Source: Endomychus coccineus (taxonomy: Eukaryota > Arthropoda > Insecta > Coleoptera > Endomychidae). From it: 64,000 nucleotides of DNA. Numbering within the stretch: the stretch's first letter is position 1; each line of letters begins with the position of its first letter. Positions 33,126-64,000 of the stretch are shown one piece after another. The position numbers were made by a program, and so were the translations under genes. Below the pieces are notes generated by a model, which was not told the DNA's origin, made no database searches, and was given only the letters and a program-made list of their open reading frames with translations. The DNA lies in NCBI GenBank assembly GCA_958510875.1, contig OY294070.1:46231576-46295575 (forward strand). Reading direction: 5' to 3'.

Positions 33126-34771
33126 TTATTCCACCTGTATTTTTATGAATTCGAGAGGGCTTCTTTGATTGTTTATTATCATGTAGTTTACATTTGGTCG
33201 GATGGAGATCATGTTGTGTATGTCAATTTCAGTTGTTGTTCCGTTCACCTCCGTCACTTCACCGCGCCCTCTTAATACTACCAGCATCGTCTGTCTCCTA
33301 TTGAGGTACCCGATGCTGTGGCCCGATACCACTTTCAGGTAGGACACCCCTACCGGGCAACATCGCACCTTTTTGGTTCTGTGTTGTATTGTCGTGTAGG
33401 CCCACCGAAACCTTTTTGCCACAACTGCATCTTCTTCATCCACGTTATCATCGTCGTACCCCAAGGGCTTGAGGCGCTTGTTCGCCTTCCTTGCCCTTGG
33501 GGGCCCACCCCCGACAACGAACCTCTCCGGAGGATTTCTCCTCCGGTCGCCCCTTCGCAGTGGCGGCGGGGATGGCGTTACCTGGTGTTCAGGTGACGGC
33601 TCCACTGAGGCCTCTTGCGGTTCCTCAATGTTATTCATTGGCTCTTCACCATTGGCTCTTGCCTCCGCGTGAACCTCGGCAACGACCTCGAGGGTTTCCG
33701 ACCACCGGTTCCTCCGTGTTTTCTCTGTTGGCGTCCCCGGTGACGAGGACGTCGACGATTGGACCTCTGCCGGTGGTGTTTGTTCCGGCGGTGTTGGCGG
33801 CTTTGTTTGTTCCGATGACGCCGCTTTTTTTTCTATCAATATTCCCCTTTCTATAAGAATCTCCAATATGCTTTTCCGTTCAGGTTGTTGTGGCGGCGGT
33901 GGTTCTGCGGTTGGAAGAGGAATTGCCAGAGGTCTGGGCGTAATCAGCGGTGGAATAGCAACTCGCCTTTTCTTCTTTATTTTCCGCGGAGCTGCGGTCT
34001 CCGCAGGTGTAGGTGGAGCATCGGGTGCCGCGTACACCACATCCAAATCGATATCTCTTAGAACGCGCTTCCCACGTCTTGGCGGTGGCGATGGCGGTTT
34101 AGTTGTTGGGGTTGATGTTGGCGTCGCAGGTGACGCTGCCGGCGACGCTGTCGGACTTGGCGACGCTGTCGGGGTTGGCACTTTCTGTTTTTTCAGAATA
34201 CCTCTTCTAGGAACTGCCCGAGGCCTTACCGTGGTCGGCGGTTGTATTGGGGCCCTGACGTCTGCTCTTTGTGTTTGTGATCTGGTCACATGCCTTTTCC
34301 TGGGCGAAATGTCCTGGATATGAGTTTCTCCAAAGTCGACCCTCCTCCGCTTGGGCTGCGAGGACGAAGGCCCCGCTGCCAGTAAATCGGCCTTTGAGGG
34401 TGGGGACAGTATTTGAAGCTTTGGTTTACGACCTGCTGGGGCGGCGGCGCAAACTGGGGCAGCCGTCATGGGGGGCGGCGGCTACAACGGGAATGGCAGC
34501 TTCTGGGGCGGCGGCTACTATGGCGGCGCCTACCGGCGGCGGCTACAGCGGGAACGGCAGCTACTGGGGCGGCTGCTACTATGGCGGCGGCTACCGGGGC
34601 GGCGGCTACTGGTGCGGCGGCTACTGGTGCGGCGGCTACTGGGGCGGCGGCTACAACAGGAACGCCTGGGGCGGCTGCTACTACGGCGGCGGCTATTTCG
34701 GGTTGTACTCGTCGTCTTCGTCTAGGTGTATAAAGCCAAGCCGGCTTTATTCGCCCGCTGCGTAATTTCAT
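33126..34771 (-). pseudogene. CENP-C-like protein (CENP-C motif plus Mif2-type cupin), two frame breaks
   Basis: The 447-codon frame (34469-33126) is rich in Pro, Ala and Thr. Near residue 330 it has ARKANKRLKPLGYDD, close to the CENP-C motif (R..KR.RLKPL.YW), preceded by a similar RRGDRRRNPPERF. The last 90 residues (VSYLKVVSGHSIGYLN to EFIKIQV) look like the dimerising cupin of CENP-C/Mif2, which links centromeric nucleosomes to the kinetochore. A better start is the ATG at 34771 (MKLRSGRIKPAWLYTPRRRR), leading into Ala/Val/Pro repeats; reaching the cupin frame needs two compensating single-base indels in GCC/C runs at about 34528 and 34471. AATAAA overlaps the stop codon. The region is intronless and strikingly GC-rich amid AT-rich DNA. 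It may be a retrocopy; the indels could also be sequencing errors. Confidence 0.6.
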
Positions 34772-44970: not shown

Positions 44971-46645
44971 TTAAGATTCCTCGTTTAGCAAAACATTTAC
45001 TATGAATATGAATACGCATACGAATAATGTTATATAAATTAGCAATGTCCAAAAATCAAAGTTCTTAAATTCTAAGATTGAGTCTGGAATTTTATCGATT
45101 TCCTCCTTCTGGGCAGCTAAAGCTGTCTTCAAGTCGTCTAGTTGGATGGGGTCCAATTTTAATGGTTTCTTATTAATTGTCGGTCCGTCAGGATTACCTA
45201 GCACTGTTAGTATCGATGGAAGCGCAATGTTTTTATACTTCATTTTTGATTGTTCGAAAACACTTATGATAGATTTCTCTAAATTGATTTGACAATTCGG
45301 TGTGAGTTCCAAAATATAAAGTCCACTTAAAGGTACGTTTTCGTGATCGTTCCCACACTTCTGTATTGCGACAACCTTTTAGGTATAACTAGAAGAAATT
45401 TATTTTTTGCAAGTCTTTGTATTTTAACACTCCGCATAGTGATCGAAAATCTTGAACAGTTCATTAATTTTTGTTCGTAGCGTAACAATTGAGCTCCGCA
45501 CGGTACTTATATTACTTCCTATCTCGGTTGGGTTGTGGTTTCGGCACAGGAACTGGTCTTCTGTGATCTCGGCACAAGGTTGTTGTAGTGATGAGTAATA
45601 GTGCTCATTTAGGATTAGATATTTGAAATTAGGAAGGATGGCTTTATATAGGTTTCCTTCTTTTATGGGTACAGGGACAAGTTGAAAATAGTCATAGTTT
45701 TCGTTTTCTGTCAAAGGAATGTTTATTACGAAAACTAGCTTTTCGCCTCTTATGTAACTTTTTACTGTAATGATTTTTTCAAATAAAAGGATATTATCTA
45801 ATTTCGCTTCAAACGGTAGTTTTTTCTCGATATTTAAAAATTGTTTGATGCTCTCAATTTCTTGCAGGAGTACATGAGGTTGTATTATAGAATTATGTAA
45901 GGTATTTTCTTTCGAAAATGTTATGGCAGTTTCTAAGTCTTCGAGGATTTCGCTAATCATTTGGTATTCAATTATAATATGAAATACAGTAGGTTGTATG
46001 ACAATGAAAAAGTAATCTTCTATATACCTTATTTCTGTTTCGTTAATACATTTCTCTATTTCCTTTATACGGTTTCTCATAACGAGCTGATTAGTTGCTA
46101 AACGTGAAATGCTATTATTGAATTTTTGTACGGTAGTTTCAATTATTGTAATTTGATCTTTAACAATTGATTTTAATTTATCTTGATTTGTGGACAGTGT
46201 TTGAAAGGCTTGGTCATAACGTTCAGCGTCTTCCGCATCTAAATAGCCGGTGATAGCTTTGAACATCGAGCCTAATCCGTTAATTAGACCACGTTTGTTT
46301 CGGAGGGTAGCGTTACGATTTAAATATGAAGGTTTTATCTGGATCAATTGAGTTTCAATTTTACTTGCTAAATTTTCGATTAAGTTATAAGAATTATTGA
46401 AGTCAATCTTATAATCCTTGTTGTTGTTATGTCTTTGAAAAGTTGCTTTCAAGTTTTCTGTTGAGAATGTTAACGTTTCGAATTCGGTCACAATTGTACT
46501 TAGATCAAAAGCTTGAAGGAATGACCACCGGTCTATTTGGTTTTGAGCAATGCCTAATTTGAAGGGTAAGAGTCCCGGGTTGTCTTTAATTTCATGATAG
46601 ATGGGATTACGGTATTCTGCAGTGGTTATACAGATGATGAATCTG
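44971..46645 (-). pseudogene. Gypsy-3 envelope-like gene (F-like), one break before the membrane segment
   Basis: The main frame is open from about 46642 to 45424. It has no useful ATG but reaches back to a splice-acceptor-like TTCTGTTGCAG, consistent with expression from a spliced RNA as in other errantiviruses. It has a basic cleavage-type motif (RNKRG) followed by a hydrophobic Gly-rich segment and coiled coil, then Cys-containing ectodomain. A stop at 45424 and frame change precede 45312-44971, which holds a transmembrane helix (LLIYITLFVCVFIFIVNVLL) and a short tail. Known family role: membrane fusion glycoprotein; whether this copy is functional is doubtful because of the break. Confidence 0.8.
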
Positions 46646-46699
46646 CAACAGAAAGTGGTTTTCTCAGTTCTTTAGTGTGAATAATAGTTTCTTTTTTTG

Positions 46700-47154
46700 T
46701 TTTTTTTATTTTTTACCTTAACTAAAGTATTTCATTGACCGTCAAATTCAAATACATCTATATGAAGGATTTGAAAGGCTGGCGTTCCAGTCATAGCTAT
46801 AGGAAAATATGATTTGTCTCTAGCATATTTCGATATTTGGTAAAGATGGCATGAATTTACATAATTCGTAACGTCAGTTTTCATCGTAGGCCTATAATAA
46901 TTTCTTCGGAGATGTTTGTATGTCTCTTATATACCACGATGGTTGCATTTGCCTTCGTGTTGGAATTTTATTAACATTACTTGTTCAACTTTTTCTCTTA
47001 TTGAATTAACCATTTTTGTGCATTCGATTAATTCAACACCTTTTCCACAAAAATGATTTCGATACACGTTGTTAAATTCTAGGAATTGTGAGTTGTCTTT
47101 AAAATATGTGTAAAAGGTTTTGTCGGGCATTGTGAAGTCACGTGATAGTTCCAC
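46700..47154 (-). pseudogene. Gypsy-3 integrase zinc domain, core deleted
   Basis: 47154-46927 plus the next frame to about 46745 give an HHCC domain (HEGKCNHRGI, NYYRPTMKTDVTNYVNSCHL) and the first residues of the catalytic core (ILHIDVFEFDG). The sequence then passes straight to the A-rich leader and splice acceptor of the envelope-like gene. The D-D-E residues beyond the first are missing. Confidence 0.78.
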
Positions 47155-47357
47155 AATAAGTTCGCTATTATACTTAGGTATTTTAACTTCTAAGATTTTA
47201 TGTTTTTGAAAATCATTTCGATTTGTTTCCAGTTTGTTGTGAACGTTAGAGGGTATGATGATCTGATTGAATATATTATTAATAATTTTGTCCAGGATTT
47301 CTATGTCTGAATTTGCGGAGTCATTAAAGTCCGAATGAATTGTGTTAATTGTTTCAC

Positions 47358-47573
47358 TTAACTCTTTTTTGGAGCATTTGGGGCAATTAATTGTATGTCT
47401 TGCAAAATTTTTATTTTATTCTCGGATTGTGTTCGATTACTAGAGGAAGGGCGTGAACTGTGAACATTAGATTCCGATTGCAAATCTTGTAGGATTTTTC
47501 CTATATCTGGTTTTGGGGTATCTAAATTTTGGTTGTCATTAGTTTGGTTCATTTCTTCTTCAAGTGATAACAA
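47358..47573 (-). pseudogene. Gypsy-3 Pol spacer
   Basis: A 71-codon acidic, Asn/Ser-rich frame (MLSLEEEMNQTNDNQNLDTP) between protease and the integrase zinc domain. In Gypsy-1 the equivalent tether follows RNase H; here it follows protease directly, marking the RT/RNase H deletion. Confidence 0.65.
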
Positions 47574-47578
47574 GAAAT

Positions 47579-48364
47579 CTACAATTCTTGTTCAGAATCT
47601 CCGGGTTCATTAAATATACTAGTATTATCTATGGCATTGATATGAATTTGGGAAGGTCCTTTACGGCATTGATCTTGTCGGGGCGGTGTGATAAGTGAAT
47701 AATTAAATTTAGCACGATAATGTGTATTTACGGGTTCATTCATTATATCGGGTATCTCCATTTCTTTATAGATCATTTGAATTCGAGTATGCGGAGTAAA
47801 TATTAGTTTTGAACTGAAGTTTATACTAGCGTCTAATTGTTTTAAAATATCTGCGCCTATTAGACCATGATATTTCTCGGAAAAGTCGGATATGTGGAAT
47901 TTGATCCATTGATTTGTATTAAATGTACTGAATGCTGGAATTTTCATTACTTTATTATGATGTGATAGACCATGAGCAGTTTTAATGTAGAAATCTTCTT
48001 CCGTTAAGAAATTTTGGAAATGTTTATTAGGTAAATTTGTGCACATTAATGATCGTGAACTTCCTGTATCTATTAAGAAATAGCCATTTATCTCTGGTAT
48101 ATGACTACCTGAAAATTTACGTCTTGTTCGAATGTCGTTTGATGAGCATACATTATCAGCATCATACTTACTTTGGTTTAGTTGATAATCATATGAATTT
48201 GTGTGAGGGAGGTTAAATTGTTCTTCATAAGAAGTCAGCTGATACATATTATCATTGTTTATACTAAGGTTATTTATGCAAGAATCATTTACACAGAGTT
48301 CATTTGTATCAGGTTGCATCCCAGAGTCGGATTCTATCTGATAGTTTTCAGCGGTATTTCTCAC
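47579..48364 (-). pseudogene. Gypsy-3 aspartic protease
   Basis: Open 261-codon frame with INGYFLIDTGSSRSLMCTNL, an intact DTG active site, and the flap-side segment HGLIGADILKQLDASINF. It starts just inside the end of gag in another frame, so it would need ribosomal frameshifting, as usual for Gypsy Pol. It looks undamaged, but the RT that should follow is gone. Confidence 0.8.
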
Positions 48365-48400
48365 TTGTTGATCAAATAATTCTTTGGATACAAAATTTGT

Positions 48401-49503
48401 TTATTTTGGTTGTGTTTTTGTATTACTCGATGAAGTATCCATCGGTTCTTGGCGGTATTGTTGGGGATTTCGAGCGTTTGCATTAGTTGAATTTTGAACA
48501 AAATTAGTGCGTTGGTTTGAAAATTGCGGATGTATCTGGGATGGAATTTTATTATACGGTTGCCATGGTTGTTTCCATACATTTGCAGGACCTATCATAT
48601 TATTAGAACCTGTATTATGTTGATTATACATGGGTTGGTTAAATGGTCCATTATTAAAACTTTGTCTTGGGAATGACGAAAATCTCTGTAATTGTGGAAT
48701 TATACGCATTGGTGTGGTATTCTGCTGAACATTAACAAATGGTTTGATCGTAGACGGATTTATAAATATATTGGGTCTGGGATTTTGGTAACATTTAGTA
48801 CGTTCTTGTGGTTTGTGAGTATTGTTCAATGAATTTGTACTCTGACCGGATTTAAAGTAAATGAAATTTTCTTCTTCTTTAACTACACCAAGGGCTTTTT
48901 CTATGCTATCCGTATTTCGTAATCTAACAATCAGTTGAAGATTGTACGGTAAACCATTAATGAAAGTTTTCAGAGCGAACTCGTCGTAATGTTTAATTTT
49001 AACTTCTTTTTCGGCTGGATCGATAATTTCAGTATTTAATTTTGAAAATAAGAGGCTGCGTGCGTCTTGAATGTGTATGCCAAACTGTATGGGTGCTTCG
49101 TTTTTCAAAGGTCTTATAGAAATTAAATCTTGTACAGGCAATCGATACTTCTCTGATCACTGAACGTTACTGTAAGAATATTTTTTATTCCTGCCCGGGT
49201 AGTTATTTCATTTCTACTATAAACTAAATCAGCTGCTCGATCTCGTGATTTACTTAAAATTGTGTCAAGTATGCAAACGTTCATTGCATCTGCAGGGTGT
49301 TGTACATTTTGGAAATTTTTGATGAAATTTCCACTCACGGCTGAGAATCTACTCAGCAGTTTTGGATTACCGTCAAAGGGTGGTATGTTATCAGCTCGAT
49401 ATCTCATTAAAGGAATGTTTAGAGCCATATTAGAACATTTTGGTTCAATTAGGTGTAATCTTGAAAATATATCTACTAAATCTTCTACGTCGTTTGTAAG
49501 CAT
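48401..49503 (-). pseudogene. Gypsy-3 gag, one frameshift
   Basis: From ATG 49503 (MLTNDVEDLVDIFSRLHLIE) through 49123 is the capsid start (IPPFDGNPKLLSRFSAVSGN). 49141-48401 continues in an overlapping frame (IRPLKNEAPIQFGIHIQDAR) into an Asn/Gln-rich tail. Only one shift, near 49130, separates the halves, so the gene is nearly intact. Confidence 0.82.
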
Positions 49504-49880
49504 AAGCTAGTTTGATTAATTGAAATATGTACTTGTTGCTATAACTATTTTCAAACAAAAATGATGAGTGGGAATTAGAAAGGATTTGCACTTACAATAA
49601 TGATATCTTCATGTTTTCTTGCCTTACGACTAATGCCTATAGGAACCAGCTATGTTGGTTGGTCTCCCAGGTCTTCCTATACTAGTTTTTTCTTCAATAT
49701 GAAGAACCGATGTAATTCTCTTCACTAGAGGTGTGGTGAGTTGTGGACAGCTACGGCGATGTTAGCACGAACACTATCTTGCACTCTTTTTGCAATTTTG
49801 GAAAGTCTGAATTTGTTACGTCGATTAATCGTTGAAACGAACAGGTTTTTCCGTCGATTCGAAATTACCCTCAACGTGAT

Positions 49881-49898
49881 ATTCTACCGACTGCGCCA
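49881..49898 (-). promoter_or_regulatory. Gypsy-3 primer-binding site (tRNA-Ser)
   Basis: Minus strand TGGCGCAGTCGGTAGAAT; one change from the Gypsy-2 site. Confidence 0.82.
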
Positions 49899-50126
49899 AT
49901 TACGTGGGGGCTTTCCAAAAACGCTTTCTTTAAAAATGAACTATTTTATTTAATTCACAATTTAAATACATGTGACTCTTTTCGATGTTAGAATAAGAAT
50001 GAGTTAATCTAAAAACATTTTGAACAAATCTGTTTACAACTCATTGTAATATAATATCATGATGATCCAAGTCCTTAGAAATAACGTTTACATATGCAGT
50101 CTTATATTAATATGACAATCATAACT
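49898..50126 (-). repeat. Gypsy-3 5' LTR
   Basis: 229 bp, about ten differences from the 3' LTR. Its minus-strand end overlaps the first base of the primer-binding site, as is usual for 17.6/297-type elements. Confidence 0.92.
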
Positions 50127-50130
50127 TGCT

Positions 50131-50496
50131 GAATTCATGATAATGATTTATGTTATGTTTCAACATTAACTTCTCAAATTCATAGTTGAGAAATTTTTTC
50201 CCCATGTCAGTTTGCAAATTTGCAGGTGACTGTTGCTTGAGTATTTGGCTCATAGCTGTGGTAACATCTGAGGCTAATTTTGATGTAACTGGTAATGCCC
50301 ACACATATTTTGAAAAACAATCGATAACAACCAAAATGTAACGAAAGCTACAATTTTCCTCAGCATAGGGAATCATTTCTACTAAATCAGCTTGAAATAG
50401 ATCATACAGTTCTTCAATTATTACTCTACGTCTTTCGAAATTAATTCTTGCAGGGTTATGTAATTCTTCAACAATCTGCCTTTTAACTTTTGACAT
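50131..50496 (-). pseudogene. Polinton integrase, N-terminal half (split by Gypsy-3)
   Basis: From the ATG at 50496 (MSKVKRQIVEELHNPARINF) the frame gives the catalytic core start: LFQADLVEMIPYAEENCSFR and YILVVIDCFSKYVWALPV (first Asp region) and NLQTDMGKKFLNYEFEKLM (second Asp). It runs into Gypsy-3 at the TGCT duplication (50127-50130) and resumes at 44629. This D-D-E layout and the F-R-Y-I-L-V-V-I-D-C-F-S-K-Y motif are typical of Polinton integrases. Confidence 0.85.
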
Positions 50497-50498
50497 GT

Positions 50499-50948
50499 TT
50501 AGATTTTATGTTTCACTAATATATGACAAATAAAATTATCAATTTTTAATGCTGAAATTTTCTTGATCGAAATCGTATCTTTCAGTTGTAATTTATAGCC
50601 TATGAGAGTTCTTTTTGTGTACTCATTACTATTGATTAAGGTTATCAAAAGCGGATGAGAAATGCGAACATCTACCACAATTGCAGACTCAAGAGGAAAT
50701 GAGTAGGTGGAGTTGTCATCAATTTTTAAATGGAATATTCCATTATTTGATACAATATCACCTTCAATACAAATATTTACAACCCCCGATTTTTCAATTT
50801 TCATCAGCTCATCAACATATGTTTTATTGACAGCATCCTCATCATCTTCAGGGTCCCCTACATTGATAAGTTTATCTTCATTCAGATCGAGTTCGCTTGA
50901 AATTGTTACAAGACTATCTGGAGATCTTCCAAATTTATCTACAGCCAT
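50499..50948 (-). CDS. Polinton-type protein with fibre-like repeat motif
   Basis: I start at the ATG 50948 (MAVDKFGRSPDSLV); upstream codons belong to the abutting Gypsy-4 LTR. About 149 residues. The segment LINVGDPEDDEDAVNKTYVD resembles the D-P-x-x-x-x-D-A-x-x-K-x-Y-V-D repeat found in tail-fibre-like proteins and in some Polinton gene products. The stop is 2 bp before the integrase ATG on the same strand, so the two look like neighbouring Polinton genes. The exact role is unknown, and the coding promoter region is cut off by Gypsy-4. Confidence 0.6.
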   Translation of the reverse strand: MAVDKFGRSPDSLVTISSELDLNEDKLINVGDPEDDEDAVNKTYVDELMKIEKSGVVNICIEGDIVSNNGIFHLKIDDNSTYSFPLESAIVVDVRISHPLLITLINSNEYTKRTLIGYKLQLKDTISIKKISALKIDNFICHILVKHKI

Positions 50949-50964
50949 GATTATTATTCGATAA

Positions 50965-51690
50965 TGTTCGCTCCACGAATTGAGTATTTTCACAACGTTT
51001 TTAAAAAATACACTTTATTCAACAATGGTAGTTGTAGGTACAAATGCAATATTAAGACTGGCTAGATTCCGTAATTTACATATATAAATAATGTTCGGTA
51101 TTAATGAACTCTAGGTTAAATCTGATATATGAAGAGTCATGTTTATTTACTCTGCTGATTATATAACTCCTCCATCCTTAAGAGGAAGTTTTGGCAGGTA
51201 CGAACAAAACTGATGATGGGTCCCGGGTTGTTGGCTGACTTTTCTTCCGTGATAAGGTCTCAATGGTGACAGGTAAAGTTTTTGCTTGTGGTTGAAGGGC
51301 TCTGGATTTTCTGAAGAAATGTATGATGTACCATATTATTCCTAGTATAACTAGTACATACAAAGGAATTGTCCAGGGGTGGTGATTGGAGCTGAATGAT
51401 AATGGTTCGCTGATATGCATAGTTTGAAGGCGGTTTCCTTCTAGTTGTATGCGATGTAATTCGTCGAGGGAAACTTCATTGATAAGTAGGTTTTTTGTGT
51501 TTTCCATATGCTGATTCATTTTGATTTTTGGCAGAAGTAAAGGCTTTTCATAGGATTCGCCAGTAGATGTGCTAGGACAGTTCTCCACCATAATCGACCT
51601 TTTTTGCATGTAAATCTCCATAAGGAAATCTAAGGTTCATTTTAGCGAAAACTTTCCATTCCAAGGTCATCCACAATCGCGCATGCGCAG
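50965..51690 (-). mobile_element. Gypsy-4: 3' end only (envelope tail plus LTR)
   Basis: Minus strand: the envelope-like C-terminus (51621-51178), a purine tract AAGGATGGAGG, then an LTR that starts AGTTATATAATCAGC at 51168 and ends around 50965 (GTGGAGCGAA, a word shared with the Gypsy-2 LTR edge). The rest of the element to the right is missing and is replaced at about 51690 by the PolB element's end. Confidence 0.75.
51178..51621 (-). pseudogene. Gypsy-4 envelope-like C-terminus
   Basis: The frame includes SLDELHRIQLEGNRLQTM and a transmembrane helix (TIPLYVLVILGIIWYIIHFF) with a basic cytoplasmic tail (RKSRALQPQAKTL). The upstream ectodomain is lost and a frame break lies near 51610. Same domain position as the tail of the Gypsy-3 envelope-like gene. 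Confidence 0.7.
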
Positions 51691-51911
51691 TCATAGAAGT
51701 ATATGGTTCACCAATCGATGGTCTATGGTTTGGTAATCTATGGTGCACCCGACTATGCTCTATGGTTCAACAATCGATGGACAGGTAGGCTATGGTTTGG
51801 TAATCTATGATTCCCCCAACTATGGTCTGGTAAATCTATGTTTTTTCCAATCTGCAGTCTGTGAACTAGTCATCTGTGTACTCGCATTCTACTGAAATGA
51901 ATATTTTGTTA

Positions 51912-51978
51912 TCCTACACCGGATTCGAACCCGAGAAATTAATTCCAAAGTTAGGTGGCTTAACCGCCCAGCTATGGA
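51912..51978 (-). tRNA. tRNA-like unit in the left inverted repeat (mirror of unit 3)
   Basis: Reverse complement of unit 3 with B box GGTTCGAATCC. After the A box it runs straight into the spacer that follows unit 2 in the right copy, so it is a recombined 3/2 hybrid. Confidence 0.55.
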
Positions 51979-52036
51979 CTTGAGAATGAGTAATTTTAAT
52001 GTAGTATATATAATCCGAGTCAACTGTACTGAAAAA

Positions 52037-52095
52037 AGATTCGAACCCGGGAAATAAATTCCAAAATCGACGCCTTAACCGCTGAGCTATGGAGG
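52037..52095 (-). tRNA. tRNA-like unit in the left inverted repeat (mirror of unit 1, truncated)
   Basis: Retains A box and B box but lacks the 3' acceptor strand: about 18 bp present at the right copy are deleted next to AAAAAAGATTCGAA. Confidence 0.5.
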
Positions 52096-52183
52096 ACATG
52101 ATAACAATCGTCTTTAATGTAGTAGATATAGCTCCGGTGCACCCTAGGTTTGTCACGTGGGTTTAGCCTAATGTCACCTAGGT

Positions 52184-52870
52184 AAAGGTGAGCCTAACCT
52201 CATCCATAATAATTTTAAATCGAAAGAATGTGATTTTTATGTTACACAATTATTTTGAAAGTTGAAAATAGTAATTCTGGACACGTGCTTCAACATTCAG
52301 ACATGTGCTTCAACAGACGGTTATTCAATCAAACATATATAAGCAAGAAGTTTTTATGGAGATCTAGTTCGTTTCCCAACCACCTAAGAGGTAGAACTTA
52401 TGGCATGTGCTTTTTTTCAATAAAGTGGAAAGCGTCCCCAGGAGGCCTACAAACCACTAGCAATCGATAACAAAATAATTATGTAAACATGTTTTAAATA
52501 AACTTGAACTTAACTAAACTTAACTAAATGTTGAATATGATTATAAAGGTGAGCCTAACCTCATCCATAATAATTTTAAATCGAAAGAATGTGATTTTTA
52601 TGGTACACAATTAGTTTGAAAGTTGAAAATAGTAATTCTGGACACGTGCTTCAACATTCAGACATGTGCTTCAACAGACGGTTATTCAATCAAACATATA
52701 TAAGCAAGAAGTTTTTATGGAGATCTAGTTCGTTTCCCAACCACCTAAGAGGTAGAACTTATGGCACGTTGCTTTTTTTCAATAAAGTGGAAAGCGTCCC
52801 CAGGAGGCCTACAAACCACTAGCAATCGATAACAAAATAATTATGTAAACATGTTTTAAATAAACTTGAA
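52184..52870 (+). repeat. Tandem duplication next to the left inverted repeat
   Basis: A segment of about 360 bp beginning AAAGGTGAGCCTAACCTCAT occurs at 52184 and again at 52545, almost identical, ending AATAAACTTGAAC near 52515 and 52870. A third, inverted copy is in the right repeat. All three preserve a short 68-72 codon frame, which is probably not coding because it simply reflects sequence identity. Confidence 0.85.
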
Positions 52871-53079
52871 CAATATGTATTAATAATTTGAATTTTATGA
52901 TAATTATATCGTTTTGTTGATCTTTACTGAACTCTCCATGGAAAGTGAGATTATTCTTAATCTAGGAATTTAATTAAATTAAACATGTGTGCCATATCAT
53001 AATTATTTGGAAGAATTAGGATTGAAAATGCAAAAGTACATTCGCTGATTTAGAATATTTAATAGAAAAATGTATACAT

Positions 53080-53245
53080 TGACGTAGACGTAACTTGTTT
53101 TAGTCCACATGCATGTATATAGAGGATGATTTGGAATTGTTTATAGAAAAAATGTATACATTGATGTAACTTGTTTTGATCCACATGCATGTATATAGAG
53201 GATGATTTGGAATTGTTTATAGAAAAAATGTATGCATTGACGTAA
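53080..53245 (+). repeat. Short tandem repeat, about 75 bp unit
   Basis: Two to three copies of a unit containing CACATGCATGTATATAGAGG and TTTGGAATTGTTTATAGAAA, ending just upstream of promoter cassette 1. A related copy is at 53925-53990, just upstream of cassette 2, and a shorter one at 57095-57150, upstream of cassette 3. Confidence 0.75.
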
Positions 53246-53266
53246 CTTGTTTCGATCTATATGCTG

Positions 53267-53327
53267 TATAAAATAAGAGGGAACTTCAATATCTTACATC
53301 AGTTCACAACAGCAAATTTAGGTAAGT
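53267..53327 (+). promoter_or_regulatory. Promoter cassette 1: TATA, initiator, leader, splice donor
   Basis: TATAAAA at 53267-53273, the arthropod initiator TCAGT at 53299-53303 (34 bp from the TATA start to the A), a 20-nt leader, then a strong donor GGTAAGT (donor at 53322). The same cassette recurs at 54012 and 57159. What it drives here is unclear. Confidence 0.55.
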
Positions 53328-53517
53328 AATTCTTCATTATATTCTAATCAAATGTGTACACATATCATGAATTTGTCAATTTCATTAGGTTAATTTTGTT
53401 TAGTGCAATCTACATTTATCAATTTGTTTATCATATAATTTTTTTAAGTAATTCATATAATCCCCCAGTACCAGTATATGTTTTACTACTATGTCTACAC
53501 CATATATTTTTTAAACA

Positions 53518-53875: not shown

Positions 53876-54011
53876 TTTTGAATGAGATCATTTTTCATAC
53901 GCAACAACATTAACGTAGACGTAACTTGTTTTCACATGCATGTATATAGAGGATGACTTGGAATTGTTTATAGAAAAATGTATGCATTGACATCTTTTTA
54001 TTCATATGCTG

Positions 54012-54073
54012 TATAAAATAGAAGAGAACTCTAATATCTTACATTAGATCACAACAGCAAATTTTAGGTAAGT
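54012..54073 (+). promoter_or_regulatory. Promoter cassette 2 (initiator decayed)
   Basis: TATAAAA at 54012-54018, leader CACAACAGCAAATTTTAG and donor GTAAGT at 54068. The initiator is ACATTAGATC rather than CATCAGTTC. Confidence 0.5.
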
Positions 54074-54079
54074 AATTAT

Positions 54080-54884
54080 TCGTTGATTAATCTTTATAAT
54101 TTCTTATATCGAATACTATATATATATTCTAATCAAATGTGTACACATATCATGAATTTGTCAATTTCATTAGGTTCTTTTTATTAAGTGCAATCTACAT
54201 TTATCAAGTACACATATCATGAATTTGTCAATTTCATTAGGCTATTTTTGTTTAGTGCAATCTACATTTATCAATTTGTTTATCATATAATTTTTATATA
54301 AGTCTACATTTATTTCTGATAATGAGTGCATTGTTCAATTATAATTTAAATTGAAGTGATTCCATTCATTTAGAATATGAAAATTTGAATCAGCAAAGAC
54401 CTACCTTTACTATTTTCACATCAGGGAAAAATCATACTCCACATCACGCAGATTAAAAACAAATTAATATGAGATGTTACAATTATTTTGTATAGTGAGA
54501 ATCAACATATATCTTTCAGCTATACTGGCACTAGGATAACGAATGCTATGTATAGAATATGTATTAATAATTTGAATTTTTATGATAATTATATCGTTTT
54601 GTTGATCTTTACTGAACTCTCCATGGAAAGTGAGATTATTCTTAATCTCGAAATTTAATTAAATTGAACATTCATTCAAAATTGTAAGCATAATATCAGG
54701 ACTGTATTAAGTAATATCTCGAACGGTGAGGAGAGAAAGAATTAAAAAATAAATGTATTGCAAAAGTACATTCGCTAATTCAGAATATTTAATAAAAAAT
54801 GAATACATTAACGTAGACGTAACTTATGATTTAAATCATCCCTTAACCCGATTACAATGAAACATTCTGTATCTTCAGGTTCAA
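54080..54884. other. Non-coding repeats, no gene seen
   Basis: Repeats of the intron-like segment after cassettes 1 and 2 (CACATATCATGAATTTGTCA at 54144 and 54211) and a near copy of 52871-52980 at about 54565-54665 (ATCTTTACTGAACTCTCCAT). No coding frame is supported. Confidence 0.5.
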
Positions 54885-56239
54885 CTAGAAACCTACACCT
54901 GATTTGGGTACGTAATCGCTCCATCTGTAATTGTGAATATTACAAGTGTTACTTATTAAATAATAAAGATAATCATTAGTCGAACATACTTCAACCAATA
55001 ATTCGCCTAGAGCAAATCTAGTGCCACGTATACCAAATTTATCTAAACTTGGTATTGTAGGTTGGGGTGTAGTCAAAGTTGGAGGAGCAAACGACTGATG
55101 CAACTCATCATCATCATATAGCCTATAGGGAAAGTAGAATTAGCATTAAAATAATTCGAAAGTAAATCAGAAAAAAGAAAAACTTACGTTAAATCAATCA
55201 TTCCCACCACATTATCATCTGGAGGAGCAGGTGACCGATGCGACTCATCATCATCATATAGCCTATAGGGAAAGTAGAATTAGCATTAAAATAATTCGTA
55301 AGTAAATCAGAAAAAAGAAAAACTTACGTTAAATCAATCATTCCCACCACATTATCATCTGGAGGAGCAGGTGACCGATGCGACTCATCATCATCATATA
55401 GCCTATAGGGAAAGTAGAATTAGCATTAAAATAATTCGTAAGTAAATCAGAAAAAGAAAAACTTACGTTAAATCAATCATTCCCACCACATTATCATCTG
55501 GAGGAGCAGGTGACCGATGCGACTCATCATCATCATATAGCCTATAGGGAAAGTAGAATTAGCATTAAAATAATTCGTAAGTAAATCAGAAAAAATAAAA
55601 ACTTACGTTAAATCAATCATTCCCACCACATTATCATCTGGAGGAGCAGGTGACCGATGCGACTCATCATCATCATATAGCCTATAGGGAAAGTAGAATT
55701 AGCATTAAAATAATTCGTAAGTAAATCAGAAAAAAGAAAAACTTACGTTAAATCAATCATTCCCACCACATTATCATCTGGAGGAGCAGGTGACCGATGC
55801 GACTCATCATCATCATATAGCCTATAGGGAAAGTAGAATTAGCATTAAAATAATTCGTAAGTAAATCAGAAAAAAGAAAAACTTACGTTAAATCAATCAT
55901 TCCCACCACATTATCATCTGGAGGAGCAGGTGACCGATGCGACTCATCATCATCATATAGCCTATAGGGAAAGTAGAATTAGCATTAAAATAATTCGTAA
56001 GTAAATCAGAAAAAAGAAAAACTTACGTTAAATTCTCATCCAACCTGAAAAATAATATACATCCATACTATACTTCAAAAAGAAATAAAGAACTTACTGT
56101 TCATGTATGTAAATTAGAAAAAAAAAAGTAAAACTTACGTTAAATCAATCATTTCAGCCATATTGTCATCCAACCTGAAAAATAATATACATTCATACTG
56201 TACTTTAAAAAAGAAATAAAGAACTTACTGTTCACGCAT
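54885..56239 (-). CDS. Mini-exon gene: nine predicted exons including six tandem 75-nt copies
   Basis: Minus strand. Exons: 56229-56239 (ATG, 11 nt), 56139-56174 (36), 56027-56044 (18), then 55887-55961, 55747-55821, 55607-55681, 55467-55541, 55328-55402 and 55188-55262 (75 nt each), and 55122-54885 (238 with stop). Every internal boundary has a GTAAGT donor and a TTTTCAG or CCCTATAG acceptor; introns are 54-94 nt, mostly 65. Lengths add to 753 nt, an open frame of 250 residues. Each repeated exon encodes a 25-residue unit with LYDDDESHRSPAPP and ending MIDLT; the 36- and 18-nt exons encode shortened LDDNMAEMIDLT and LDENLT versions. The last exon adds a unique C-terminus (GIRGTRFALGELLVEV). 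No known domain. The spliced model is inference, but the agreement of phase, splice sites and frame is strong. Confidence 0.7.
55188..56026 (-). repeat. Tandem array of exon-plus-intron units, 140 bp period
   Basis: Six units of 139-140 bp, nearly identical, each a 75-nt exon plus a 64-65-nt intron. The unit boundaries at the array edges fall in introns, so copy number can change without disturbing the reading frame. Confidence 0.92.
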
Positions 56240-56435
56240 TTAACTTTCGCTATTCATCGTTTTTGTTTTTTGTCGAAAGTAGATGTATTCGAATTGTGAT
56301 GGTTGCTTACATGTTGCAGCTATTTAAACATTTACAGTATTGACGTCAAACTCGATTTTTATTCAAAACATATATATATATATATATATAAACAAGTTTA
56401 AAGTTTCTTTGCCTAATTGGCCACTATCGTGTATG

Positions 56436-56755
56436 TAACTTAAGAGATATAGAATTAAATTTTCTGAATTATGAAGATAACTTAGATAATTTAACATAGG
56501 ATTATAAAGATGAATAAACGTAAAAGATTGAACCATAGGCGGGATTCGAACCCACATTTCCGGACTTCCAGTCCAGGGTGTTTACCAATTACACAACTTC
56601 GGTAATTGGTAAACACCCTGGACTGGAAGTCCGGAAATGTGGGTTCGAATCCCGCCTATGGTTCAATCTTTTACGTTTATTCATCTTTATAATCCTATGT
56701 TAAATTATCTAAGTTATCTTCATAATTCAGAAAATTTAATTCTATATCTCTTAAG

Positions 56756-56758
<3 letters not shown>
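56436..56758. repeat. Perfect palindrome, 157-bp arms, 9-nt loop
   Basis: 56436-56592 and 56602-56758 are exact reverse complements by eye, with the loop ACAACTTCG at 56593-56601. The centre lies in the acceptor stem of a tRNA-like sequence. TA dinucleotide repeats follow at 56757-56810 and a shorter run sits at 56371-56391. Confidence 0.92.
56531..56603 (-). tRNA. Canonical 73-nt tRNA-like cloverleaf, anticodon GGA
   Basis: On the minus strand: acceptor ACCGAAG pairs with CTATGGT (6 of 7), D stem GTGT/ACAC (4 of 4), anticodon stem CTGGA/TCCGG (5 of 5 with one G-T), loop CTGGAAG, a 4-nt variable loop, T stem GTGGG/CCCGC with loop TTCGAAT, discriminator T, no encoded CCA. B box GGTTCGAATCC. 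GGA would read Ser codons, but the short variable loop is not tRNA-Ser-like, so identity is uncertain. The palindrome's other arm carries an inverted copy lacking the native 5' acceptor strand. Confidence 0.7.
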
Positions 56759-56815
<57 letters not shown>

Positions 56816-57158
56816 CCTGTCGGACTATCTATCAGACAGTCCTAGTGTGAGTGCACCATGTCGCGCGAAATATAAAACAGGTGTTTGGAGGAATTTTTCA
56901 TGATTTATCATAGTGAGCCGTGTCTAGGGAGTGTGAAATCGAAAAACTATCACGACCGTGATGAGAAAGATATGGCATATTCGAAATTGGTAGAAATGTA
57001 ATGGAAAAGTACTTTCGCTGATTTGGATGTTGTTATTGCATCATCTTTCACATCTTACGTGTATTATAAATAAATGCAATGGAAAAGTACTTTCGCTGAT
57101 TTGGAATTGCTTATAGAAAATGCATGCATTGACGTAGCTTGTTTTGATCCGCATGCTG

Positions 57159-57301
57159 TATAAAATAAGAGGGAACTCCAATATCTTACATCAGTTCACA
57201 ACAGCAAATGTACCTTGCTCAATAGTAGTATTTACGATACATCAAGTAAATTTTCACATTTTATAGGTAAATTCAGTGTTGAAGCATTCGTTCAGGTAAG
57301 T
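57159..57301 (+). promoter_or_regulatory. Promoter cassette 3, likely driving PolB through a spliced leader
   Basis: TATAAAA at 57159-57165, TCAGT at 57191-57195 (same 34-bp spacing as cassette 1), then a leader ending in GTTCAG with donor GTAAGT at 57296. A good acceptor (TTCTATCGTAG) ends at 59260, six bases before the PolB ATG at 59267. I infer a leader exon of about 100 nt spliced to PolB across a 2-kb intron containing the opposite-strand DUF8207-like gene. Confidence 0.5.
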
Positions 57302-57412: not shown

Positions 57413-58261
57413 TCAGTGCAATCTACACCCATCAATTTGTTTATTCGTTTGATAATACCTATGTTTTGCAGCTGTTTTTGTTAGAATTTCATTATACGCC
57501 TTTTTATCATGTAATGTATAATATTTCGGTTGTTTTTTAAAAAGTAATTCGTATAATCCTCTAGTACCAGTATATGTTTTGCCTTTTACTACTATGTCTG
57601 TACCATTTATTTTTAAACTTGAATTCCCAATTGAAAATTTCTCTGTCCTAGGATTGTGACGGATTCCATACTTTTGATCAAAATCCCTCAAGTCACCCGT
57701 TATCATTTCGCTTATGTATTCTCGTGGTAATGGTTCGTATTGTTCTAAATAGTCAATAAATGATTTTTCGGCTATATCATCATTTCTAGTTCTATTAATA
57801 TTTACTTTATCATTGTAATCATCATCATCATCTTCTTCTAATTCTTTAATTATTGATTGTTTGAAACTGTCTGTTGGTAGTCGTTTAGAATCAAGTTTTG
57901 GTGTTGAAGAAAATATTCGCTTTGATGTACTAGGAGTATGTAAATTATTTACATCTGAATCAATATTTTTAATAGGAACATTAAGATAATCATCAGACTG
58001 TTCATTTTTTGGTGAAAAATATTCACTTTCTTCACCATCATCATCACCACCACCAAAATCTGTATAAATATCACCAGTTTTCTTATCTAATTTATTTTCT
58101 ATATTTTTCAAATGTTTAGTTATCGGTGAAAATATTTTTTTCTTGAGAATTTCCCCATGTTTAAATACATCCAATTTATTTTTTATCTCTTTACGCTTCT
58201 TTATTAGTTTTTGTTTTAAATGTCGTTGCGTAATATTCATATTGACGATGATGTTCTTCAC
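57413..58261 (-). CDS. DUF8207-like protein of PolB elements
   Basis: Open 282-codon frame. I keep the Met at 58261; a second at 58240 (MNITQRHLKQKLIKKRKEIK) is also possible. The N-terminal third is a basic coiled coil, the middle is Asp-rich and low-complexity (ELEEDDDDDYNDK), and the C-terminal 110 residues form a compact domain with KYGIRHNPRTEKFSIGNS, IVVKGKTYTGTRGLYELLFK and KKQPKYYTLHD. This matches my memory of a widespread uncharacterised arthropod family (DUF8207) found near PolB genes. Function unknown. A partial copy of the C-terminal coding region lies at about 53440-53515. Confidence 0.65.
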   Translation of the reverse strand: MKNIIVNMNITQRHLKQKLIKKRKEIKNKLDVFKHGEILKKKIFSPITKHLKNIENKLDKKTGDIYTDFGGGDDDGEESEYFSPKNEQSDDYLNVPIKNIDSDVNNLHTPSTSKRIFSSTPKLDSKRLPTDSFKQSIIKELEEDDDDDYNDKVNINRTRNDDIAEKSFIDYLEQYEPLPREYISEMITGDLRDFDQKYGIRHNPRTEKFSIGNSSLKINGTDIVVKGKTYTGTRGLYELLFKKQPKYYTLHDKKAYNEILTKTAAKHRYYQTNKQIDGCRLH

Positions 58262-59266: not shown

Positions 59267-62200
59267 ATGCCCATTTTCACTGATCTGGTGAAGCATATCG
59301 CAACTCTTCTAGGACATCTAACGCCCCACTATAATGAAGCAACGGCTGCTGAGGGATTGCGAGAGTGCACCTTAGGGATAAGGAGAATACATAATGCCCT
59401 TAAATCGGCGAAAAACATCGGAGAGAAGCAGCAGCTACTATCAGCATTGGGGGCGGTGAAGACGCTACGTATCCAGATAAAATCGTTGCGGAAGAGAGGT
59501 TCTGGTATAACTTCGAGAAAAGAAACAGCGCGGGATCGAGTTTATTGGACTGATTCCATATCTGCGTTCAACAACCGCATCCGTACAGGGATCCTTTCAA
59601 ACTTGAAGCATAAGGATCCCGAAGCATTTATGTTGGAAGAAGGATGAGGCAGTTAAAGTTAATGCAGTATTCTGCGGAGAATTTCGAATCGTCAAAGCAG
59701 AGCAGGTATTGACTGAATTCAAGTACTTCAATACATCTAATTCGCCAATCTATCGGGACACCAACTTGGATAGTTGGTTTGAGGATAAGATAGTGAAGCC
59801 GATATTAACCCAATTGGAAGAGTTTCAAGAAAGAGACAGCGGGTGGGCGTTGACTAAGATTATAAATTTGGGGATAAATATTAACAAATTCACACCTCAA
59901 CTAGGTTCATCGTATATCGATTTACCGGTCCAGATCAAACGTAAAAAGGCTTGTATTAATGTGAAAAATGACGATGATGCTTGTTTCGCATGGGCAGTAA
60001 CAGCTGGGTTACATCCTACTACTAACCCACATTCAGATAGAGCTAGTTCATACCCTCACTACAGGGAAGTATCAAAATTGAAAGGGATTCAATTTCCGAT
60101 GACAATGCGTCAGATCCCCAACTTTGAGAAGCAGAATGGAGTCTCCATCAACGTATATATCTTGAAGAAGAGTGTAAAATCATTCGTTACGTTACCTACC
60201 TACCTCACGAAGGAGAAAAGGGATAGACACGTTAACTTTCTGCTTATTCAAGATCGTTACTTTGAGGAGGAGGAAGGAGAAGATAGCGATGATGTGACGC
60301 CAATTCGTTTCCATTACGTCTGGATTAAAGATCTATCACGCCTGGTTTCTTCGCAGCTGAATAAACATGATGGACGGAAATATTTTTGTGAACGATGTCT
60401 CCATTACTTCCACTCTGAGGAGAAGTTAGACAAACATACTGAGGATTGTGAGAAGCTAAATAGCTGTAAGGTTAAGATGCCCGAAGTTGGAAAGAATATC
60501 CTAAAATTCAAAAATTTTAAGAATAAAGTGAAAGCTCCATTTGTGGTATATGCAGATCTGGAAAGCGCTCTTAGCCCCACTTCGGACCCGAAAAAGACGC
60601 AGCAACATATCCCTGCAGCTATCGGATATTTCATGAAATGCTCCTATGAAGATTCCCTATCCTTCTATCGGGCTCATCGAGGCGTGGATTGCATGAGCTG
60701 GTTCGCGGATCAGATGAAACAACTTGCCGAAGAATTAAGTACAGTTTTCTGGTGTCCTTATGACATCGATATGACGCAGGATGAAAAAGTCGCATTCAGA
60801 ATAGCAACATATTGTCATATTTGTGAGCAACCATTCTCTGAAGTGGATAAAAAAGTGCGAGATCACAATCACCTTCTACCTCTGAAAAATTATCGGGGAG
60901 CAGCACATGAAGGGTGCAACATCAACTATCAAGATACGCATGTTGTTCCTGTAGTTTTCCATAATCTAAGCAACTATGATGCAAACTTTATAATTGAAGA
61001 TGTAGCCTTGCGAATGGAAGGTAAAATCGATCTGCTCCCGATAACTAAGGAAAAATACATAAGTTTCACCAAACATGTAGATGATACACCCATTCAACTC
61101 AGATTCATAGACTCGTTCAGGTTCATGGGTTCCTCCCTCGATAAATTAGCATCATACTTGAATGATTTCCCAAATTTGAAATGTCAGTTTAGGGAACTCG
61201 ATGATGAACAAGTTGGGCTATTAACCAAGAAAGGTGTTATGCCATATGATTATATCGACTCGTTTGATCGGTTTTCCGATTCAGTTTTACCTCCTATTGA
61301 TGCTTTCTACAATAAATTGGAGGATAAACCATGCCCCCGAAAACTCTACCAGCGAGCCCAGCATATATGGGAAAAATTTGGATGTAGAAACTTGGGGCAA
61401 TATGTCGATTTGTATATGAAGACGGACATAATGCTTCTAGCGGATGTTTTCGAGCAATTCAGAACTAGCTGTCATCAAACATATAATCTGGATCCTGCAC
61501 ACTACTTTACATTACCTGGCTTCACTCGGGATGCTATGCTGAAACATACGAAACAAGAACTGGAGCTTCTCACAGACCTCGATATATTTCTATTCGTTGA
61601 GAAAGGGATTAGAGGAGGACTCAGTCAAGTTTGTTCTAAGCCCACGCCAACAATAAATATATGCCAAATTATAATCCATCGAAAGCTGATTCTTATTTGA
61701 TGTATTATGACGTCAATAACCAGTATGGTTGGGCCACGAGTCAAGCTCTCCCATATGGCGGATTTGAATGGTGTGATGCAAATATTGACGTTACTACAGT
61801 TCCAGATGATTCTGATGTAGGATATATTTTAGAAGTCGAATTGGAGTACCCTAAACATCTGCTTGATCAACATATAGATTTACCCTTCTGCCCTCTACAT
61901 ATCGATCCTCAAACAGGGAACAGCTCAGCTTCATCAAATGCATCATCAAAATTGATGGCAACGCTTCAGCCTAAGGAGAAGTACGTCATCCATTACCGCA
62001 GTCTCAAGCAAGCGCTAGCAAACGGTTTGATTCTAAGTAAAATTCATCGTGCCTTGAAATTTAGACAAGCTGCATGGTTGAAATCGTATATTAACCTGAA
62101 TACTAACCTTCGGAAGGCAGCAAAGAATGAGTTTGAGAAGAACTTATTCAAATTGATGAATAATGCTGTATTCGGTAAGACGATGGAAAACATCCGTAAA

Positions 62201-63034
62201 AGAGTGAATGTTCGCTTACTAACCGAGTGGGCTGGGAGGTATGGTGCACAATCATACATATCGAAGCCGGACTTTAAGAGTTGTACGATCTTCAATGAGA
62301 ATTTGGTAGCTGTTGAACTAAACAAGCTGGAAGTATGGTTGAATAAGCCGATATATGTGGGTACGTCGATTCTGGATTTGGCGAAGATAACCATATACGA
62401 CTTCCATTATGGATATATGATTCAGACGTTTGGGGATAGTTGTTATGTACTGTATACAGATACGGATTCTCTTATCTATGAATTGGAGCGAGACCCTCAT
62501 GATATGATGAAGCGTGATCACCATCACTTCGACACCAGTGACTACCCAGTTGACAACATCTATGATATTCCACTCGTTAATAAGAAGGTGTTAGGAAAGA
62601 TGAAGGATGAGAGCAACGGAACCCCCATGACCGATTTTGTAGGTCTAAGGTCCAAATTATACGCAATAAAGTTATTAACTACTGAGTATGATGTTAGTAG
62701 GAAGCTTCAAGATCTGAAAAAAGCTGAATATGAAGAATCCGAAATTGCGGAAATAATGCGGAACTATGGTGTGATAAAAAAAGCTAAGGGAGTGAAATTT
62801 TCCGTTGTGAAAAACAGGATCGATTTCGATGACTATGTAGAGTGTCTCGAAAAGTGGAAAGAAGTATCAGTTACTCAACATTTAATTAAAGCTGAAAAAC
62901 ATAAAGTGTTTTCTATAAGTCAGGAGAAGATTGCTTCATCTCCCAACGATGATAAGCGGTACTTGATACCTGGAACTTTTGCAACGCTTCCGTGGGGACA
63001 TTATACAATCTCTAATATAATGGCGACAGATTAG
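59267..63034 (+). pseudogene. DNA polymerase B (protein-primed type) of the PolB element, two frameshifts
   Basis: Three frames in series: 59267-59647, then about 59640-61660, then 61655-63034; single frameshifts at about 59645 and 61655 interrupt it. N-terminal region of unknown role (LDSWFEDKIVKPILTQLEEF; KKACINVKNDDDACFAWAVT), a C2H2 finger (CERCLHYFHSEEKLDKHTEDC region near 60385-60450), exonuclease motifs (YADLES; FHNLSNYDANFI; YVDLYMKTD), a CHIC...VRDHNHL...GCN zinc motif resembling HNH/endonuclease VII, and polymerase motifs A (YYDVNNQYGW), B (KLMNNAVFGKTMEN) and C (YTDTDSLIYE). All catalytic residues are present. The family copies linear element or viral DNA using a protein primer. 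About 1,250 residues if continuous. The frameshifts may be decay or sequence error. Confidence 0.88.
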
Positions 63035-63150: not shown

Positions 63151-63600
63151 TATAATCATATTCAACATTTAGTTAAGTTTAGTCAAGTTCAAGTTTATTT
63201 AAAACGTGTTCACATAATTTTTTTGTTATCGATTGCTAGTGGTTTGTAGGCCTCCTGGGGACGCTTTCCACTTTATTGAAAAAAAGCAACGTGCCATAAG
63301 TTCTACCTCTTCGGTGGTTGGGAAACGAACTAGATCTCCATAAAAACTTCTTGCTTATATATGTTTGATTGAATAACCGTCTGTTGAAGCACATGTCTGA
63401 ATGTTGAAGCACGTGTCCAGAATTACTATTTTCAACTTTCAAACTAATTGTGTAACATGAAAATCACATTCTTTCGATTTAAAATTATTATGGATGAGGT
63501 TAGGCTCACCTTTACCTAGGTGACATTAGGCTAAACCCACGTGACAAACCTAGGGTGCACCGGAGCTGTATCTACTACATTAAAGACGATTGTTATCATG

Positions 63601-63669
63601 TCCTCCATAGCTCAGCGGTTAAGGCGTCGATTTTGGAATTTATTTCCCGGGTTCGAATCTGGTGTAGGA
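63601..63669 (+). tRNA. tRNA-like unit 1 in the right inverted repeat
   Basis: 69 nt with a 7-bp acceptor stem (TCCTCCA with TGTAGGA, one mismatch), an A box TAGCTCAGCGG at 63608-63618 and a B box GGTTCGAATCT at 63650-63660. The anticodon region (ATTTTGGAATT, TGG or TTG possible) has a poor stem, so this is a tRNA-derived or tRNA-mimicking unit rather than a clear functional tRNA. Its truncated mirror is at 52037-52095. Confidence 0.6.
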
Positions 63670-63736
63670 CAACATTCATTTTTCAGTACAGTTGACTCGG
63701 ATTATATATACTACATTAAAATTACTCATTCTCAAG

Positions 63737-63805
63737 TCCTTCATAGCTGAGCGGTTAAAGCGTTGACTTTGGAATTTATTTCTCGGGTTCCAATCTGGTG
63801 TAGAA
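63737..63805 (+). tRNA. tRNA-like unit 2 in the right inverted repeat
   Basis: 69 nt, about 136 bp from unit 1. A box TAGCTGAGCGG intact, B box decayed to GGTTCCAATCT, and the acceptor stem weaker (TCCTTCA with TGTAGAA). Missing from the left inverted repeat. Confidence 0.5.
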
Positions 63806-63867
63806 CAAAATTCATTTCAGTAGAAGTGACTCAGGTTATATACTACATTTAAATTGATTAATTCAAT

Positions 63868-63937
63868 TCCTCCATAGCTGGGCGGTTAAGCCACCTAACT
63901 TTGGAATTAATTTCTCGGGTTCGAATCCGGTGTAGGA
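63868..63937 (+). tRNA. tRNA-like unit 3 in the right inverted repeat
   Basis: 70 nt with acceptor TCCTCCA/TGTAGGA, A box TAGCTGGGCGG and a perfect B box GGTTCGAATCC. Loop TTTGGAA would give anticodon TGG, but stem pairing is poor. The mirror copy is at 51912-51978. Confidence 0.6.
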
Positions 63938-64000
63938 TAACAAAATATTCATTTCAGTAGAATGCGAGTACACAGATGACTAGTTCACAGACTGCAGATT

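Follow-up and report, generated by a model that had tools for sequence, protein, structure and literature searches.

The window, a 64,000-nt stretch of Endomychus coccineus contig OY294070.1, carries a mobile element of 12,726 bp, which starts at window position 51562 and ends 287 nt past the window, at contig position 46295862. Its terminal inverted repeats, approximately 1.3 kb on the left (51562–52871, starting AGTAGATGTGC) and 1.1 kb on the right (63151–64000, continuing 287 nt beyond the window), pair with each other and have AGTAGAT ends. The element is flanked by a 6-bp repeat with one mismatch, which reads ttcgcc before the left end and ttcgct after the right end. On its plus strand lies a PolB gene in two parts, the first at 59709–61700 (PF03175, E 4e-12) and the second, in another frame, at 61661–63034, as this copy is frameshifted. 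By coordinate arithmetic, the PolB of two related loci in the same genome, L026 and L027, continues in a single frame across the point of the frameshift. The best relative of the element PolB was 71% identical and came from Leptinotarsa decemlineata, and there were many other relatives in beetles and wasps. Two additional ORFs were recorded: one of 126 aa (59267–59647, plus strand), which lies beside PolB in several relatives and had no convincing Pfam match, and an acidic one of 275 aa (57413–58240, minus strand) with no Pfam match. The element has 50 ORFs of at least 50 aa; the 15 searched against Pfam gave no match to integrase (RVE), ATPase, protease or capsid, a search that a broken integrase remnant could escape. 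In viral contigs, 22 PolB pattern matches were obtained, of which none was confirmed.

Several other features were observed in and around the element. Directly upstream of the array gene described below, positions 56432–56762 form a near-perfect palindrome with 161-nt arms and a 9-nt gap, which holds a tRNA-like gene called tRNA-Ser(GGA) and had no match in the fetched loci. The inverted repeats contain tandem units of approximately 135 nt (51849–52130 and 63569–64000) with a tRNA-like stretch, marked by a GGTTCGAATC box; these units were not called as tRNA by ARAGORN or by Rfam at gathering level. Three TATAAAA-plus-initiator-like copies, each followed by a plus-strand GTAAGT donor, were seen by eye at 53220–53330, 53965–54070 and 57112–57220, and could be spliced leaders that serve the PolB side. 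Positions 45424–51621 hold retroelement remains that include a baculovirus F-like ORF (PF12259), and the element start at 51562 falls within an ORF at 51178–51621. At 34495–34654, a 15-nt tandem repeat, GGCGGCTACTGGGGC, overlaps ORFs on both strands.

On the minus strand, the element carries a gene model built around a tandem array (the array gene). TRF located the array at 55080–56033, with a period of 140, 6.8 copies and 98% matches. The six tandem 75-nt segments that the original prediction had placed here, bounded by CCCTATAG and GTAAGT, are indeed present, and all six are identical. They are spaced by 140, 140, 140, 139 and 140 nt, and the GT-AG introns between them are in phase 2 and 65 nt long, except for one of 64 nt. 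Left unspliced, the three frames of the minus strand contain 45, 40 and 47 stops. The proposed exons (11 + 36 + 18 + 6 × 75 + 238 = 753 nt) likewise exist as described and keep the frame open from ATG to stop. The 238-nt last exon, however, had to be split, as it holds a 65-nt GTATGT...TTACAG intron (54925–54989), equal in length to the array introns; relatives conserve this intron and also the exon that follows it, exon 11. Counted from the ATG first proposed, at 56239, the corrected coding sequence comprises 765 nt and 254 aa.

Exon 1 is 29 nt long (56229–56257) if drawn as in the other four array copies, where it reads ATGAATAG and begins 18 nt upstream of the position first proposed. In the window copy, this upstream ATG is followed by a stop after five codons, hence the ATG first proposed is the second one. 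Exon 2 (56139–56174, 36 nt, LDDNMAEMIDLT) contains the first sequence resembling a SUMO-interacting motif (SIM). Exon 3 (56027–56044, 18 nt, LDENLT) is similar to exon 2, lacks the motif core in frame and also occurs in L009 and L010. The six repeat exons of 75 nt (55887–55961, 55747–55821, 55607–55681, 55467–55541, 55328–55402 and 55188–55262) encode LYDDDESHRSPAPPDDNVVGMIDLT, the T of which is completed by the next exon. Exon 10 (54990–55122, 133 nt) runs from LYDDDELHQSFAPP to LDKFGIRGTRFALGELLVE, and exon 11 (54808–54924, 117 nt) consists of MERLRTQIRCRFLVEPEDTECFIVIGLRDDLNH and a tail not common to relatives. Past ...DDLNH the window exon 11 loses similarity to its relatives, in which the exon reaches another donor, which is GTGAGT in the majority of the copies read.

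By inspection, the N-terminus of the array-gene protein is acidic and polar, with no hydrophobic signal stretch. Whole-protein Pfam scores exceeded the cut-off for DUF1427, SAF and Acetyltransf_1; these hits were rejected as repeat artefacts, since no single stretch passed by itself. No Pfam match to a RING domain, as RNF4-like SUMO-targeted ubiquitin ligases have, was obtained for the originally predicted version of the protein or for pieces of its relatives. Searches for proteins homologous to the spliced product, which need shared 5-residue words and similar length, returned 22 and 38 candidates, none of them significant. No solved structure resembling the protein was found, and viral contigs contained no exact exon-donor match.

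The genome (906 Mb in 129 contigs) was searched with a unit-sized query, which matched 18 loci including the window, and with a 3′-exon query, which gave at least 40 matches, 40 of 250 candidates having been scored; genome-wide counts are thus lower bounds. Together, the window and 37 further loci (17 from the unit query and 20 from the 3′-exon query) make up the 38 loci analyzed. Arrays were present at three close loci, the window (WIN), L009 and L010, and at two divergent ones, L011 and L012; the other matches were parts of relatives. PolB was encountered within 8 kb further on in 13 of the 17 flanks of first-search loci, which makes the array gene a regular part of these elements. Flank PolB matches reached identities of up to 96%, with 33–59% in the five most divergent (L037–L040 and L042). 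The attribution of the array gene to a PolB element was upheld. A PolB tree of 14 rows and 101 columns, in which L011, L014, L018 and L024 had no usable row, contained two firm clades, both of which have the array gene, and one firm pair. The remaining branches were unresolved, so the tree does not order the array gains. A CA microsatellite was also observed in the last intron, just 3′ of the GTGAGTGAGTC-like donor, in L010, L018–L021 and L025; it is shorter in L011 and L012 and absent in L024.

When array copy number was compared among element copies, as had been suggested, the five arrays had 6, 3, 3, 3 and 3 full repeat exons. The expectation that symmetric exons of equal phase would allow this number to vary without frameshift was also borne out: the lengths of the 18 array exons (72, 75, 78, 81, 117, 123 and 126 nt) are without exception divisible by three, the internal exons are symmetric and in phase 2, and the 17 introns measured are 60, 64, 65, 71 or 73 nt long. 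The arrays are of two types, with 72–78-nt MIDLT units and 81–126-nt IIDLT units, respectively, and the motif is present in 18/18 exons, one of which, in L011, has an in-frame stop. By eye, the unit resembles the SIM exon (LDNN..EIIDLT) fused to the first half of the last exon (LYDDD...PP...TTR). L010 has changes of its own (a GTACGT donor, an AAT codon and GGC), which occur in all three L010 units and in none of the nine WIN and L009 units, and a CGG codon occurs in 6/6 window units and 0/3 L009 units. Because such copy-private changes fill every unit of their own array, the units have been homogenized within arrays. All but one of the five array copies are visibly damaged, by stops, a lost exon, a repeat-broken exon 11 or an altered 3′ end; old transposon copies would be expected to look like this.

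The original prediction had further set as a test that the exon halves of the units should evolve more slowly than the intron halves. The data contradicted this: exons changed faster in all ten between-array comparisons, by factors of 1.7 to 4.9. Exon versus intron change was 1.8% versus 1.1% for WIN–L009, 6.0% versus 2.6% for WIN–L010, 16.9% versus 7.2% for WIN–L011, 19.4% versus 4.4% for WIN–L012, and 7.5% versus 3.8% for L011–L012. Within arrays, introns had the higher values in WIN (0 versus 1.0%), L010 (0.9 versus 1.0%) and L011 (2.8 versus 5.6%), and exons in L009 (0.9 versus 0.5%) and L012 (4.6 versus 1.4%). Gap lengths in distant exon pairs were often not divisible by three (24/72 in WIN–L011 and 36/54 in WIN–L012), which we attribute to the way the gaps were placed, given that every exon length is a multiple of three. 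Between clades, introns were 0.81–0.88 identical and their inner parts 0.76–0.87, compared with 0.38–0.61 at exon 11 third positions, a comparison that favors introns in that their identities come from gapped and the codon identities from ungapped alignment. Our reading is that the linkers between motifs may evolve fast while the introns appear unusually constrained.

The coding case is instead built on exon lengths, the codon-position pattern, dN/dS and silent change inside the motif, and not on exon-versus-intron rates. For exon 11, ten loci gave 45 pairs, 30 of which were computable; dN/dS was 0.09–0.57 in 29 of these and 0.91 in one close pair, L018–L019. Of the other 15, 13 were saturated at silent sites, and two, both of them close pairs (WIN–L010 and L020–L021), had no silent change. 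The closest pairs, with 0.91 or no silent change, thus behave as dead copies would. These rates leave out L009, L022 and L023, in which CA-type repeats break the exon, and L013–L017, from which no matching exon pair was extracted. Between clades, exon 11 third positions were 0.38–0.61 identical versus 0.57–0.81 at positions 1 and 2. In exon 10, the codon positions of clade II were disturbed by a frameshift in L019. Judged by these substitution patterns, 54808–54924 evolves as coding sequence.

The original prediction described a 25-residue acidic and proline-containing repeat and overlooked its conserved MIDLT core. The first 13 loci with the motif have 29 exons that terminate, directly before the donor, in M/I-I-D-L-(T) or a near version of it. 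The I of the core and the preceding M or I were conserved in 13/13 loci, and D and L in 12/13 each. The codons of the core vary silently (ATT/ATC, GAT/GAC and TTA/TTG) and residues -7 and -6 vary freely. That the core is kept despite silent change, with free variation just before it, speaks for selection acting on the peptide and not on the donor site. Among all 38 loci, an exon ends in [ILM]IDLT in 24, two of which (L024 and L053) have a mutated donor. The core is altered in six, L021 (IIELT), L025 (IIDST), L045 (FIDL followed by M or I), L047 (IIVLT), L048 (SIDLT) and L062 (IIAST), and none was recognized in eight (L013–L017, L046, L050 and L054). These counts are not independent, because several of the later loci are recent copies of one another. 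A second exon was observed to end in IDLV right before GTAAGT in L045, L046, L048 (twice) and L052, possibly a further motif that has also been duplicated. In a six-frame scan of the window, the seven occurrences of the core within the element all fell in the array gene; the remaining 51.8 kb had one. Shuffling the 25 residues produced the core in approximately 0.1% of trials and the core with an acidic tail in 0.03%, figures that carry no correction for the many motif types that might have been chosen; short motifs lend themselves to over-reading.

SIMs are described as four-residue cores, typically with at least three hydrophobic positions, or as VIDLT-type cores (PMC12751080, PMC3901395), and flanking acidic residues are reported to raise their affinity (PMC3901395, PMC12751080, PMC9708086). 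The SIM core of PIAS1 is given as VIDLT (PMC3901395, PMC9708086), and RNF4 and SIMC1 are described as using several SIMs for SUMO chains (PMC3901395, PMC9708086). At the level of sequence, the exon-end core matches this VIDLT type. Of the acidic or phosphorylatable residues that adjoin SIM cores, acidic ones are present in the window protein, where each of the six repeat cores is followed by LYDDDE and the first core by LDEN, and in arrays generally LYDDD.. or LYDD.. comes after the core. The window copy thus has seven putative SIM cores.

Taken together, we consider it probable that the array gene is a spliced gene of a Polinton-related element and that it encodes a poly-SIM protein whose valency would be set by exon number. 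Each repeat exon would end in a putative SIM core, [M/I]-I-D-L-T, and the next exon would open with the acidic stretch LYDDDES. As a core ends each exon and an acidic stretch starts the next, n spliced units would give n + 1 putative SUMO-docking sites. The predicted product is a proline-rich and probably disordered protein, in which the docking sites would precede a small conserved region at the C-terminus. The number of sites would change when 140-bp units recombine unequally, and the frame would stay intact because each internal exon has a length divisible by three and the boundaries up to the last-but-one exon are in phase 2. A likely use would be to bind SUMO chains, or nuclear complexes coated with SUMO, in a multivalent manner. 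Such binding would place the element in SUMO-rich silencing or replication compartments, or protect it from them. A role in counter-silencing or nuclear placement is more speculative. More specifically, the protein could act as a decoy or tether and so block or hijack silencing that depends on SUMO and is guided by piRNA, with an avidity tuned by unequal crossing-over of single-motif exons; we hold this version to be doubtful.

The decay of the array copies suits another history, in which the gene is real but its array is a 140-bp minisatellite that gains and loses units neutrally as the copies die, so that the number of motifs would not matter. In the window copy, a stop follows the ancestral start, PolB is frameshifted and the 3′ end is altered; among the other four array copies, three have stops, a lost exon or a CA-repeat break; and the excess of exon over intron change between arrays points in the same direction. 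Against this, both array types keep triplet length and motif throughout their 18 exons, the one with the in-frame stop included, and smaller exon duplications within the gene were seen by eye in L019, L022, L023, L047 and L049; we regard neutral expansion as unlikely. The original prediction had instead proposed a contingency or combinatorial gene in which exon skipping gives many isoforms, an idea consistent with the symmetric phase-2 internal exons. Skipping of identical exons would, however, give isoforms differing in length only, and the symmetry predates the arrays, as single-motif relatives already have symmetric exons, which makes this use of the array quite unlikely.

If the core were another short motif, the protein could recruit or titrate a corepressor rather than bind SUMO. 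CtBP-binding sites are PxDLS/T-like, with a proline at the first core position, and by inspection the D-L-T after a hydrophobic residue resembles them. This assignment is improbable, as the first core position is never proline, being M or I in 13/13 loci and I, L, F or S in later matches and altered versions, and as an acidic stretch follows the core in arrays. The constrained introns also raise the possibility that the array acts at the DNA or RNA level, with introns selected for regulated splicing or as a binding site and exons as passengers. The intron identities, which exceed those at exon 11 third positions, favor this, and the array intron folds better than shuffled sequences (z -4.1), its donor pairing with an internal ACUUAC. 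For the intron before exon 11, however, folding was no better than that of shuffled sequences (z 0.7). The donor hairpin depends on GTAAGT, a sequence that is missing from the aligned relatives outside the array group; the stem in that other group was judged by eye, as the alignment does not place it there. A branch-point hairpin was kept in 93.6% of cells versus 18–51% in slid controls, but none of its six pairs had a compensatory change in 13 sequences, and its end pairs were broken in 3/13 sequences at one end and 2/13 at the other. A conserved hairpin was accordingly rejected as the cause of intron conservation. With exon 11 dN/dS showing protein-level selection in addition, an array acting through its DNA or RNA is very improbable.

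If the poly-SIM reading is true, the element would have its own multivalent SUMO-binding protein, in which the number of sites changes by recombination of frame-neutral exons, and would be a clear example in nature of motifs encoded by one exon each, with array size setting valency. Viruses are described as making use of SIMs (PMC12751080), and piRNA silencing in Drosophila as involving the SUMO ligase Su(var)2-10 (PMC7272611); because of the latter, counter-defence against SUMO-dependent silencing would be directly testable. A separate question is raised by the short introns of the array gene, which are more conserved than its silent codon positions. Among the best matches listed in the open-licence literature for Polinton genes with SUMO, for SIMs in transposable elements or transposases, and for tandem or intron-containing Polinton genes, none was like this gene.

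Schistosome micro-exon genes consist of many small symmetric exons and encode secreted proteins with a signal peptide. The array gene shares the many small symmetric exons, but these are tandemly identical and belong to a mobile element, and its product, by inspection, has no N-terminal hydrophobic signal stretch. Polintons (Mavericks) have a 6-bp target-site duplication and 5′-AG ends. The element resembles them in its viral-type PolB and long inverted repeats; its ends read AGTAGAT, and its 6-bp flanking repeat, with one mismatch, is a candidate for such a duplication. It is only 12.7 kb long, compared with the 15–20 kb given for Polintons (PMC4028283), carries an intron-rich gene, and differs from them in the integrase, ATPase, protease and capsid, for which the 15 of 50 element ORFs searched gave no match. 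In the host proteins SIMC1 and RNF4, a disordered region next to another domain is described as holding several SIM cores (PMC9708086, PMC3901395), an arrangement that the predicted array protein would share. Unlike them, it is encoded by a mobile element, with one exon per motif and near-identical motifs every 25 residues, and contains no RING or other credible Pfam domain; its SUMO binding is predicted. Finally, the VANC proteins of Arabidopsis VANDAL transposons, described as anti-silencing factors (PMC10398659, PMC5735166), provide a precedent for a transposon gene that counters silencing, whereas the mechanism proposed for the array gene would act through SUMO.
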